From the NCBI RefSeq assembly GCF_029893105.1, contig NZ_JARXWG010000007.1:1-64000 (forward strand): a stretch of 64,000 nucleotides of DNA, read 5' to 3'. Below are positions 1 to 47,760 of the stretch, piece after piece. Below the pieces are notes generated by a model. It was not told the origin of the DNA, ran no database searches, and saw only the letters and a list, made by a program, of their open reading frames with translations. Position numbers and translations under genes: made by a program. This DNA comes from Parabacteroides sp. PF5-9 (GTDB taxonomy: Bacteria > Bacteroidota > Bacteroidia > Bacteroidales > Tannerellaceae). Position 1 is the stretch's first letter, and each line of letters begins with the position of its first letter.

Positions 1-116
1 CTCAAAATGACAACCTTGTTAGGGATGAGTTTTGGTTGTGTCAACTTTTATAGTAAACAGTGACGAAATGTGACAACCAATTTTAGGATAAGTCAAATTT
101 GGTGAAGATAAATTCG

Positions 117-204
117 TTTGACAACTATCGAATGATTGTTTCACAATTGTGTAATGATCGTTTGATAATTATAGAATGATCATTTCACGATTGTCAAACG
201 ATTC
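117..204. repeat. Array of four 22-bp units (16-bp imperfect palindrome + 6-bp spacer)
   Basis: Four head-to-tail 22-bp units start at 117, 139, 161 and 183. Each is a 16-bp imperfect palindrome (TTTGACAACTATCGAA, TTTCACAATTGTGTAA, TTTGATAATTATAGAA, TTTCACGATTGTCAAA) followed by a 6-bp spacer of the form TGATYR (TGATTG, TGATCG, TGATCA, CGATTC). The 22-bp pitch is about two helical turns, so a dimeric protein on each unit would sit on one face of the DNA. The array ends 200 bp before nrfH. Whether it acts on nrfH or on a gene left of the window is unknown. An array with the same geometry but another sequence lies at 44826-44907. The rest of 1-300 holds scattered gacaacc/ggttgtg segments and no gene that I can see. 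Confidence 0.85.
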
Positions 205-43684: not shown

Positions 43685-44683
43685 ATGAACAATACAATCA
43701 AACACATCGCCTTCCTTGTAATTCCCCAAGCCACCCTTTTAGATATAACAGGCCCCTTCGAAGTCTTCTCGCAAGCCATCGAAAACCTTCAGACACAAAA
43801 GAATACCCCAGCTTTTACCTATCAACTCCATACCCTCTCAATCGATAAAAAGAAAAACGTCCCTACAGCATCCGGACTAACCATCCAATGCTCCGAAAAC
43901 ATCCATACAACCGACTATCCCATTGATACCCTCTTTATCCCGGGAGTTCCCAATACACAAGCCGAACAATATAAACTCCCTCTCTCTGTCCTTAAATGGA
44001 TCAGCCAACAATCCTTCGAAGTGCGTCGCATCTGTTCCGTATGCACAGGCACTTTCTTTCTGGCCGAAGCCGGAGTACTCACTGGAAAAAAAGCAACAAC
44101 ACACTGGGGGAAAAGCGTTCTGTTAAGTCAAAACTACCCAGAAATACAAGTCGATAGTAACTCGATATTCATCAAAGACGGCAACACTTACACCTCCGCA
44201 GGAATATCCAGCGGAATGGACCTCGCACTCGCACTTATAGAAGAAGACCTTGGAAAAACATTCGCATTACACGTGGCACAGCAAATGGTACTCTACCTCA
44301 AACGTCCCGGAAGCCAATCGCAGTACAGTACCATCCTTGCACACCAACATACCGATTATCAACCCATCCAAACCATTACCAGCTGGATAAGCGAACACCT
44401 TCATCAAATCATTACCATCGAAACCCTTGCCGAACAAATCGCCATGAGTCCCCGCAACTTCGCACGTGTCTTCCTTCGTGAAACAGGAATCACCCCTGCC
44501 AAATACATCGACAAACTCCGCATCGAAACCGCCTGTCGATACCTCGTCGACACCCGCCTGACACTCAAAGAAATCGCCACCCTAACCGGCTTAACCTCTC
44601 CCGATAATATGCGGAAAACATTCCTCAAACATCTTAAAACTACCCCTGCGGAATACCGTAAAATGTTTACTTCGACGCTTTGA
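43685..44683 (+). CDS. GlxA-type transcriptional regulator (DJ-1/PfpI domain + AraC HTH)
   Basis: A 332-residue regulator. Residues of about 5-185 form a DJ-1/PfpI-like domain (HIAFLVIPQATLLDITGPFEVF; nucleophile-elbow-like SVCTGTFFLAEAG). Residues of about 225-325 hold an AraC-type double helix-turn-helix (ETLAEQIAMSPRNFARVFLRE; LKEIATLTGLTSPDNMRKTFLK). Regulators of this kind often control catabolic genes, with the PfpI domain as a non-enzymatic sensor. The divergent CoA-transferase gene is the likeliest target. Confidence 0.92.
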   Translation: MNNTIKHIAFLVIPQATLLDITGPFEVFSQAIENLQTQKNTPAFTYQLHTLSIDKKKNVPTASGLTIQCSENIHTTDYPIDTLFIPGVPNTQAEQYKLPLSVLKWISQQSFEVRRICSVCTGTFFLAEAGVLTGKKATTHWGKSVLLSQNYPEIQVDSNSIFIKDGNTYTSAGISSGMDLALALIEEDLGKTFALHVAQQMVLYLKRPGSQSQYSTILAHQHTDYQPIQTITSWISEHLHQIITIETLAEQIAMSPRNFARVFLRETGITPAKYIDKLRIETACRYLVDTRLTLKEIATLTGLTSPDNMRKTFLKHLKTTPAEYRKMFTSTL

Positions 44684-44825
44684 TTAGCGATTTTCTCCTA
44701 TTGCTCCACCTGTTTTCCTCCATTGATTGGTTTTCGGAAAGTCTGCATCCATTTTTCTACCTCATCCCATAGAAATAAAAACATCATTTCGACTGTTTTT
44801 TTGCAACACGTAGGTCTGTTTTCTG

Positions 44826-44907
44826 TTAGAGGTACGTCTAAATGAATTTAGAGGTAGGTGTAAATCAGTTTAGAGGTACGTCTAAAACAATTTAGACGTA
44901 CCTCTAA
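44826..44907. repeat. Second array: four 16-bp near-palindromes at 22-bp pitch
   Basis: Units at 44826-44841, 44848-44863, 44870-44885 and 44892-44907. Units 1 and 3 are TTAGAGGTACGTCTAA, unit 2 is TTAGAGGTAGGTGTAA and unit 4 (TTAGACGTACCTCTAA) is the exact reverse complement of 1 and 3. Spacers are 6 bp (ATGAAT, ATCAGT, AACAAT). The geometry is the same as the array at 117-204, though the sequence differs. It lies 142 bp after the GlxA-type gene and 64 bp before element B. The rest of 44684-44825 shows no gene. Confidence 0.88.
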
Positions 44908-44970
44908 CAAAAAAGTATTATAAAAGGAACAAATAAACTGATGGGAGGTTTCTGTTTTTTGCTTTGATTA

Positions 44971-45329
44971 ACGTGAGTTCGATATAAGTTTCAGATTGAA
45001 GAATATGTGAAGATAGTGAAGGCGAACGCCACAGGCGTTAAATGTGCATAACCCCGGGTGAAGAGGAGTGTAGCGGATCGACCCGGGGTGAATAGATACT
45101 ACTCTCCAATCAACGCCGATAGGTGTTGAACTGCAGATGATTGAACACCTTCGGCGTTCGTTTGTTACACTCATTATATACCCCGGGTCGATCCGCTACG
45201 CTCCTCTTCACCCGGGGTTATTGGCTAAGGCCGATCTTCGATTCACATTAAATCCCTGTGGGATTTGGTCTTCGGAAAACCTTCAAATTTTACAAAATCT
45301 GAAGATAAATCTTTATATCGAACTCACGT
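44971..45329. mobile_element. MITE-like element B with 17-bp terminal inverted repeats
   Basis: Perfect 17-bp termini: ACGTGAGTTCGATATAA (44971-44987) and TTATATCGAACTCACGT (45313-45329). Inside, 40-bp arms at 45050-45089 and 45180-45219 are inverted copies with one mismatch (core CCCCGGGTGAAGAGGAG... ). A central hairpin (AACGCCGATAGGTGTT / GAACACCTTCGGCGTT, about 45113-45160) adds a third level. No transposase and no coding potential. The overall plan matches element A at 8940-9340. It fills most of the gap before the minus-strand permease gene. Confidence 0.75.
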
Positions 45330-45423: not shown

Positions 45424-47760
45424 TTATTCCGCCTTCAAATAATTCACCGGATTTGACATCGCCACCGGTACCGACCGTGCCACCACACAAAACTGCGTCA
45501 CCATAAAAATCGCCAGTCCACTCAACAAAAACAGTGTAAAATGCAATGGGATCTTCAATACAAAATGCTGCAACCATTCCGACCCTACAGCAAAAGAGAT
45601 CAGTAAGCCGATCACTATCGCCGGCAATACGATAAACGAAATACCTTTGGCAAACAACTGTAAGACATCAAGTACCACAGCTCCGTTCACTTTCCGTATG
45701 GCGATCTCTTTCGTCCGGCGGGTAATCTCATCTTCCACAAAACCAAACAATCCCAGAATAGAAATAATCAACATAATCATCGACGCCACTATCACCGAAT
45801 CGCGGAACAACCGCGCATCCCGGTAATAATTAGTATACTCCTCTTTAAATGAAAGAAACAGACTCTCCTCATTGTTGGAATAACGTTTGAGTTCGGTAGA
45901 GAGCGATGCGATCACTTCCTTTGTCGGTACAGTAGTCAGCCTCACCACAATATCAGGCTCCCAGTCATAGGTATCCAATGGCAATACCACTACAGGAAAT
46001 ATAGCGTTGTAGACCGTACCCGACTGATAATCTTTCATCACCCCACAGATTGTCCAGGTACGATCCAGGTAATCAATTTGTTTCCCCACCGGATCATCCA
46101 AACCGGCCATCCGGACCAATGTTTCATTCACAAAAACCTCTCTCACATTTCCACTTGCCGATTCCCGGAAACTCCTCCCCGCAACAAAAGGGATATTAAA
46201 AGCCTTCGCAAAATCGGCATCGGCAAGCAGATAATGACCGATAAAAAGACTTTCTTTCGTTAGTGTATTCACCACAGGACTTCTACCAAGACGATTCAAC
46301 GGCGTTTGAGTGGTAAGCGTTACCGACTCGACATTCGGAAAGCGCAACAGTTCAGCTTTTGCCCGCTCCTTTTGTTCTATACTCATATCTCCTAAAGAAC
46401 TACTTTTCAGCACCTCTGCCGTATCATAGCCCATATTCTTGTTCAAGATCATATGATACTGCATCATAATAATCACCAGAAGCGAAAGCATAAAAGAGAT
46501 ACCTACAAACTGTACAAACAACAATCCGTTTTTCCATTTCCTTTTACTATCTGCATACGAACGGAAAACCTGAGTCACCGGAATAGAAGAAAATACACGC
46601 GAAGGAAGTACGCCGGTCGTAAAAAACAACAAAAGCAATACAACACCCGATGCCCAAAGGTTAGCCGGAGCAAATACCGCCGACAAATCGGCCTTGATAA
46701 GTACCCCTATATATCCCCGGAAAGCAAAAATAATCAACACAGCCAATAATAGCGAAATAAATACAAGTACTGCCGTTTCAGTCATAAACATACTGAATAT
46801 ACTCTTGTCTGAAGCCCCGTTGCATTTATAAACGCCTATTGATTTCGCCCGTTTAGGAAGACTCGAAACAGACAGTAACACATAATTCATCGCCGAAGCA
46901 AACAAAAGAGCAAAGGCAAGCAGACTAAGGATCAGAGCCGTCCTTCTCACCTCCGGATCCTTGGTATGAATATCCACTACAGGACGGAGAAAAAGCTGAC
47001 GCGAGATCCCCTCCCTAAGTTCCGCGTCTACATCATAATGACGCCGCATCATATCAGGTATCTTGGCCTCAACAACCTTCGGATCAATCCCTTCCCGCAA
47101 CTTTACATACCCATTAAAACTACCCATGCCTCTCCAGTTATCCCGGCTCATCCCCCGCTCATACATCGTATTAAAGCTGATGACCAGATCCAGTTCCAAA
47201 TGAGAATTTTTCGGGATATCCTTAAACACACCCGCTACGGTAGCCACATGCTCACCTTCAACCAACCGTTTCCCCAACGGATTATCGTCACCAAAAGCAC
47301 GTCGCGCGAAAGTCTCCGAAACAAACACATGAAACGGTTTTCCCATATCTGTCACATTGCCGGCGACTATAGGAAGACCAAAAGTCTGAAAAAACAAAGA
47401 ATCGGCAATCAACTGTTTCCCGGCTATTTTCTTTCCATCAAATACATATTCCACATCACCCGCTCCATTCGTCATCACAGTACCTGATTCAACTTCAGGA
47501 AACTCCTGAACCATGGTCGGAGTAAAAGGAGCATTTATGGTACGCGCCTCATCAAGGTCTCGCCCATCGACATTCCATTTAATCGTCACACTATATATCC
47601 GATCTTTATCCGGATAAAAATTATCATACGACATATCAAAAGCCACCTGCGAAAAAAGCACAAGCCCCACCACTAAACCCAGGGTAAGGGAGATCACTTT
47701 TATAAAATTACTTCCTTTATTTTTCCATAAATACCGGATACCATATAACAGCTGTTTCAT
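45424..47760 (-). CDS. MacB/FtsX-type ABC permease, double-domain
   Basis: A 778-residue membrane protein with two copies of the MacB-periplasmic core plus FtsX layout: an N-terminal helix (about 20-42), a periplasmic domain, helices near 280-305, 325-350 and 370-395, then a second helix near 420-442, a second periplasmic domain and helices near 670-690, 715-735 and 748-768. EIAIRKVNGA is the typical cytoplasmic segment that contacts the ATPase. No ATPase gene adjoins it. Bacteroidetes encode many such orphan permeases, commonly linked to antimicrobial peptide or lipoprotein handling. The specific role is unknown. Confidence 0.85.
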   Translation of the reverse strand: MKQLLYGIRYLWKNKGSNFIKVISLTLGLVVGLVLFSQVAFDMSYDNFYPDKDRIYSVTIKWNVDGRDLDEARTINAPFTPTMVQEFPEVESGTVMTNGAGDVEYVFDGKKIAGKQLIADSLFFQTFGLPIVAGNVTDMGKPFHVFVSETFARRAFGDDNPLGKRLVEGEHVATVAGVFKDIPKNSHLELDLVISFNTMYERGMSRDNWRGMGSFNGYVKLREGIDPKVVEAKIPDMMRRHYDVDAELREGISRQLFLRPVVDIHTKDPEVRRTALILSLLAFALLFASAMNYVLLSVSSLPKRAKSIGVYKCNGASDKSIFSMFMTETAVLVFISLLLAVLIIFAFRGYIGVLIKADLSAVFAPANLWASGVVLLLLFFTTGVLPSRVFSSIPVTQVFRSYADSKRKWKNGLLFVQFVGISFMLSLLVIIMMQYHMILNKNMGYDTAEVLKSSSLGDMSIEQKERAKAELLRFPNVESVTLTTQTPLNRLGRSPVVNTLTKESLFIGHYLLADADFAKAFNIPFVAGRSFRESASGNVREVFVNETLVRMAGLDDPVGKQIDYLDRTWTICGVMKDYQSGTVYNAIFPVVVLPLDTYDWEPDIVVRLTTVPTKEVIASLSTELKRYSNNEESLFLSFKEEYTNYYRDARLFRDSVIVASMIMLIISILGLFGFVEDEITRRTKEIAIRKVNGAVVLDVLQLFAKGISFIVLPAIVIGLLISFAVGSEWLQHFVLKIPLHFTLFLLSGLAIFMVTQFCVVARSVPVAMSNPVNYLKAE

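Follow-up and report, generated by a model that had tools for sequence, protein, structure and literature searches.

The array at positions 44826 to 44907 of the window (the whole 64,000-nucleotide stretch of Parabacteroides sp. PF5-9 DNA that was analyzed) is the core of an intergenic element of ~240 bp, here named family A, of which the genome holds ~90 arrays, a total estimated from pattern matches since most arrays yield two or three overlapping ones. Each array consists of near-palindromic units on a 22-bp lattice, and IS3-type elements have inserted next to these arrays, nearly always in a fixed phase of that lattice. On the balance of the evidence set out below, we put it at about even that the array serves a postulated dimeric DNA-binding protein as a platform for cooperative binding, exploited by IS elements. 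The features of the window are as follows.

1..95, + strand: end of an IS-like element, ..TTTTAGGATAAGTCA, one of nine copies, all abutting family B, the other eight at contig ends; it faces the family B array of the window
117..198, + strand: family B array, four units like TTTGACAATTGTCAAA at 22-bp pitch, with CGATCG/TGATCA-like spacers
44726..44803, + strand: family A leader, more weakly conserved than the array (alignment of 40 copies; outer limit approximate)
44804..44819, + strand: degenerate unit 0, consensus TTACACCTACCTCTGT, in the 22-bp register upstream of unit 1 (alignment of 40 copies, and IS insertions there in other copies)
44826..44907, + strand: family A array, four 16-bp units at 22-bp pitch, half-site order S w S w S w w S
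44826..44841, + strand: family A unit 1, TTAGAGGTACGTCTAA
44848..44863, + strand: family A unit 2, TTAGAGGTAGGTGTAA, two G/C swaps with respect to unit 1
44870..44885, + strand: family A unit 3, TTAGAGGTACGTCTAA, the same as unit 1
44892..44907, + strand: family A unit 4, TTAGACGTACCTCTAA, the reverse complement of unit 1
44908..44970, + strand: family A tail, AACARAAAAGTG... then CAAATAAACCG, terminator-like in many copies (alignment of 40 copies; outer limit approximate)

The relations among the units are those of the original prediction, namely, units 1 and 3 identical, unit 4 their exact reverse complement and unit 2 with two changes. It had also spoken of four palindromes, which is right as to the number of units but not as to their symmetry: the palindromy is imperfect, with a single mismatched pair in each of units 1, 3 and 4 and three such pairs in unit 2, and mismatches are usual across the copies. 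Tandem Repeats Finder reported the array with a period of 22, 3.7 copies and a score of 115. Its 5' neighbor encodes an AraC-type regulator with a DJ-1/PfpI domain (43685-44683, +), and its 3' neighbor encodes a MacB/FtsX-type permease (45424-47760, -). After the array, a long inverted repeat (45041-45221) is formed by CCCCGGGTGAAGAGGAGTGTAGCGGATCGACCCGGGG and its complement; the same motif occurs in L010, L021 and L085 and at the contig ends L253 and L262, which makes it another dispersed repeat.

A first search of the genome with window positions 44700-45050 as the query returned about 40 family A copies at 76-94% identity, and 40 copies could be aligned over a leader of ~100 bp, the degenerate unit 0 in register, the four units and the tail. 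A three-unit pattern gave 276 matches per strand in the same genome and a control gave 0, while the four-unit pattern gave 169 matches; the density on contigs C1-C4, about 24 arrays in 988 kb, also leads to a total of ~90. The four units stand at exactly 22 bp in 40 of 40 loci, and in 42 of 42 in a second pass, with no drift, and none of the 42 arrays lies inside a gene. At least one array of the genome departs from the number of four, since that at C2:10791-10894 has five units, and the copy L032 has its array in the opposite orientation with respect to leader and tail.

A scan for four palindromic units at pitches from 16 to 44 was carried out in 514 kb of the genome and gave 78 clusters at 22, which do not amount to a genome-wide rate because most of this DNA surrounds known arrays. 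Nearly all the other pitches gave 0 to 2 clusters, those at 33 and 44 being harmonics of 22, and shuffled sequence gave no four-unit palindromic cluster. A scan for 22-bp tandem palindromes had been the proposed check of the class, and within the 514 kb it returned many arrays with two cores and no third. The second core is that of the sister array noticed near position 117 (units at 117-132, 139-154, 161-176 and 183-198), which is real and has dispersed copies of its own, family B, at about 40 places in the genome.

Among 120 genomes of the bacterial family, A-type arrays were found in 5, in five genera; the named carriers are Parabacteroides sp. PH5-46, PF5-6 and BH.2_3 and Massilibacteroides STF2_31. 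Most arrays in genomes G019, G008 and G017 lack the leader or any common flank, so that what is kept is the array by itself, and locus L089 of G019 has a leader similar to that of family A. The arrays of Parabacteroides BH.2_3, with 3 to 6 units, share a leader and a tail of their own, different from those of family A, which points to a separate amplification. A B-like unit pattern was found in 28 of the 120 genomes and in 10 of 16 genera, with a reversed control that matched 0 times in all but three genomes and a few times in those three. The B-like cores and spacers are lineage specific (for example, TTCAACAATTGTTGAA with CCC/GGG caps in G019, TTCGACAGCTGTCGAA in G077 and GTTGACAATTGTCAAC in G008), the pitch is the same and the units are usually four; in particular, most of the 16 B-like loci inspected have four consecutive units on the 22-bp lattice. 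Parabacteroides sp. PF5-6 has a third core, AAACTACCGGTAGTTT with GCGCGC, again at 22-bp pitch. The idea of a class defined by its geometry is thus upheld, given that family A, family B, the PF5-6 core and the cores of other genera share the 22-bp pitch and usually the four units. The opposite case, that only two arrays exist and that none is found in relatives, fails, because ~90 and ~40 copies are present in the genome and relatives carry arrays. Two other repeats were seen along the way: in PF5-6 (L098:2670-2760, L198:130-260 and 7484), GAGCTC/GAATTC-like palindromes with a 10-bp period form a different fixed-pitch class, and in G008 (L225, ~1640-1700), 22-bp direct repeats AAACACCGCACTTTTGTCGACA adjoin a GTTGACAATTGTCAAC array.

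Within family A, the eight half-sites of an array follow a positional code. Over 42 arrays, half 1 is GAGG in 41, halves 3 and 5 in all 42 and half 8 in 41; half 2 is GACG in 39 of 42, with variants at halves 4 and 6. The order met most often, S w S w S w S S, is that of 25 of the 42 arrays, and the few four-unit arrays of G019 and G008 show much the same order. Furthermore, of 573 cells at unit positions 10, 11 and 13 in the PF5-9 genome, only 4 hold a base other than G or C. Variants exchange G for C or C for G and hardly ever introduce A or T, contrary to the transition-rich drift that free sequence should show. Taken together, the positional code and the restriction to G and C imply selection on the array. 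In family A, positions 6 and 11 are paired in 40 cases against 88.6 expected, so that the commonest variants break pairs, and in family B, positions 3 and 14 form 28 Watson-Crick cells against 56 expected, following a rule of one strong and one variant partner similar to that of family A, while positions 6 and 11 are symmetric (93 Watson-Crick against 58.7 expected).

These counts bear directly on a reading at the RNA level, by which the transcribed arrays would fold into hairpins that stop transcription or protect the mRNA. The array of the window does fold strongly (-43.9 kcal/mol, z -7.7), and the tail of many copies contains a terminator-like hairpin. However, such folding follows from units that are near-palindromic, the pairing of unit 1 with unit 4 shows no covariation across the 42 arrays (z -0.19), units 1 to 3 fit direct repeats better than inverted ones, and the deficit at positions 6 and 11 shows the commonest variants undoing the stem. 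An Rfam search of the window returned tRNAs only. With a strong fold that covariation does not support, we rejected this explanation and hold it to be highly improbable.

A different kind of evidence comes from IS elements, in whose ends the draft contigs of the genome often terminate. All sampled IS3-type ends abut arrays, 16 of 16 at family A and 9 of 9 at family B, and the ends of a control IS (ISd) lie near arrays in 0 of 5 cases. The right end ..ACAACCTATTTCAGGACAGGACA has 8 occurrences, all at family A elements and all with the array 17 mod 22 bp away (8/8), and this phase is the same for insertions into units, unit 0, unit -1 and the tail. A related left end, ..ACAACCAATTTTAGGACGGGACA, has about 10 occurrences, and the 8 flanks that were read all have unit position 8 of a family A element as their first base, over the same range of locations (unit, unit 0, unit -1 or tail), the positions in leader and tail having been assigned by reading the 40-copy alignment. 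The inserted elements end in TG...CA, and the left and right flanks, with a pairing of individual ends that we infer, jointly imply a 3-bp duplication. A duplication of 3 bp is usual for IS3 elements. At family B arrays, the end of a second IS type, ..TTTTAGGATAAGTCA, was found in 9 of 9 cases, with a phase of 20-22 in 8 of 9.

The same behavior extends beyond this genome. In genus g15, related IS ends stand at phase 17 mod 22 in 7 of 7 cases despite other array cores, although several of these, two of them beside apparent rRNA genes, are probably one ancestral insertion and hence not independent. The OrfB of a related element in another genome (L291) matches PF00665 and PF13683, and the related elements of G082 and G015 carry genes for IS3-type proteins, among them a G082 OrfB with an rve integrase domain. 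The IS end was absent from the viral contigs and plasmids searched. Some junctions deserve a separate mention. At the start of contig C38 (L119:1-120), an additional 22-nt copy of the IS end stands between that end and the array, in lattice register, and is possibly the remnant of an earlier insertion. In G109, loci L272 and L284 have an IS-end remnant and a four-unit array, identical at both and apparently beside rRNA genes, and in G022 (L267 and L279), a GTTGATAATTATCAAC array directly adjoins an IS3-type end in a MITE-like manner.

The fixed pitch, the fixed count, the half-site code and the variation restricted to one base class are what selection for a cooperative, polar assembly of dimers would be expected to produce. 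In the platform that we propose, four dimers would sit one on each near-palindrome, about two helical turns apart, with the strong outer half-sites and the preferred inner order giving the assembly a polarity. The protein would itself make the lattice, which may reach about one or two 22-bp steps past the array, because IS insertions keep their phase there. This persistence of the phase where no unit is recognizable suggests that the target is the assembled lattice and not the unit sequence alone, and it is possible to hypothesize that the platforms are safe landing sites which IS elements have evolved to exploit. Each lineage would have its own protein or proteins matched to its cores. The likeliest role of such platforms is the organization of the nucleoid or of loci at many intergenic points, rather than the control of one regulon.

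Several observations weigh against the platform. Family A is patchy (5/120 genomes), a pattern that resembles a mobile system, or one spread horizontally, more than it does a core function of the nucleoid, and the similarity over leader, array and tail within the genome indicates spread as an element. Moreover, a transposase that reads weak features of the DNA directly could give the phasing of the insertions, and unit 0, perhaps with other flanking positions, may retain cryptic unit features. Lastly, 22 bp corresponds to 2.1 turns, so that adjacent dimers would be rotated by ~35 degrees and not be exactly in phase.

The main rival is a selfish REP/BIME- or MITE-like repeat without host function, a possible reading of which we are doubtful. 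The array would then be the recognition core of a transposase or copying process, the element would have spread intergenically, and IS3-type transposases would recognize the copies directly. The ~90 copies with a common leader and tail, the separate amplification in BH.2_3, the patchy and strictly intergenic distribution and the precedent of REP sequences in other bacteria, which IS elements are known to target (PMC1525189), agree with this. However, a RAYT/REP mechanism was rejected, since no Y1 transposase was found: Pfam PF01797 (RAYT, Y1/IS200-like tyrosine transposase) had 0 matches in the near-complete draft of the genome, and it is present in 15 of 25 genomes searched. The array ends bear inverted CTGTTAGAGG...CCTCTAACAG, but neither a sharp boundary nor target duplications were seen in the 40-copy alignment. 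Arrays without a common flank in G019, G008 and G017, as well as the selection implied by the half-site code and the G/C-only variation, also argue against a repeat without function. Phage or plasmid origin was rejected as well: IMG/VR gave no match to the A pattern, and plasmid searches gave no meaningful match.

Comparison with known repeats leads to both likenesses and differences. REP/BIME sequences are short palindromic intergenic repeats, present in many copies and specifically targeted by IS elements (PMC1525189; PMC3733652), and the arrays resemble them, the GTAG- and CGTC-tagged ones included, in being short, palindromic, intergenic, multicopy (many dispersed extragenic copies) and IS targeted. 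However, REPs are single or paired foldback hairpins, whereas the arrays have four units at a fixed 22-bp pitch, a half-site code and retained mismatches, and no RAYT was found in the genome. In particular, conserved stem pairing with a GTAG/CGTC end tag is not seen in family A, where mismatches are usual, covariation is lacking and GTAG or CGTC strings occur within units only in some variants. The BrickBuilt MITE of Porphyromonas gingivalis consists of a leader, tandem ~23-nt repeats and a tail, in 19 copies in ATCC 33277; its direct repeats of 23 nt number 1 to 22.8, its termini are IS5-type terminal repeats, it has no inserted IS, and full elements are reported only in P. gingivalis and P. 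gulae (PMC4596501). Both belong to Bacteroidales, are intergenic and share the leader/repeat/tail layout, but instead of a variable number of 23-nt repeats with IS5-type termini, the arrays have four units at a pitch of 22, no IS5-type terminal repeats were seen, and IS insertions are phased.

As to the inserting elements, IS1397 and ISKpn1 belong to the IS3 family, and like other REP-inserting IS, they strongly prefer a dispersed palindromic repeat. Different from these, the insertions described here follow the phase of a 22-bp lattice, also outside recognizable units, and are of different IS types for classes A and B. Several other IS elements prefer dispersed palindromic repeats (PMC1525189). 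Among the targets, dRS3 corresponds to CGTC-1 REPs (PMC3733652), with ISNm1106 as an example of an element that uses it (PMC1525189). The neisserial dRS3/NIME repeats are likewise short dispersed inverted repeats that serve as an IS target. The dRS3 units flank other repeats and are not known to form four-unit arrays of fixed pitch. No description of the present arrays was found in the literature searched; thus, even if selfish, they would be a dispersed repeat class undescribed there, with unusually precise IS targeting.

The original prediction had offered two functions for the class, operators of paralogous regulators or DNA structural elements. In the former case, each class would represent the sites of one transcription factor and its members a regulon, as the palindromic cores, the intergenic position, the two classes in one genome and the 16 of 41 family A arrays between divergent genes would allow. 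However, one class alone has ~90 copies, 6 of 41 family A arrays lie between convergent genes, and the distances to gene starts are broad. The neighbors are not orthologous between genera, and the 77 flanking proteins fall into 177 Pfam families with a flat distribution and no common pathway. Comparison across genera of the genes nearest the arrays, and of all those within 4 kb, showed no recurrent genes other than those of large paralogous families (ECF sigma, FecR, ABC). The operator idea in its usual sense is not supported by these results, and we consider it quite improbable that each class marks a regulon; regulation of a shared pathway by ordinary operators is unlikely. The structural element, on the other hand, may persist in the form of a protein-bound lattice.

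Returning to the platform, we tentatively suggest, as a broader possibility in Bacteroidales of this family, a chromosomal system defined by geometry, in which a DNA-binding family of fast-changing specificity places four dimers, 22 bp apart, at each of tens of intergenic points and forms a polar, extendable lattice that directs IS3-type transposition to a fixed phase. If the lattice is real, an unknown family of DNA-organizing proteins in gut Bacteroidales has left in the sequence a footprint that includes its spacing, polarity and recognition code, and the phase of the lattice is mapped by natural transposon insertions. Lineage-specific cores within a conserved geometry would then be a clear case of protein-DNA coevolution.
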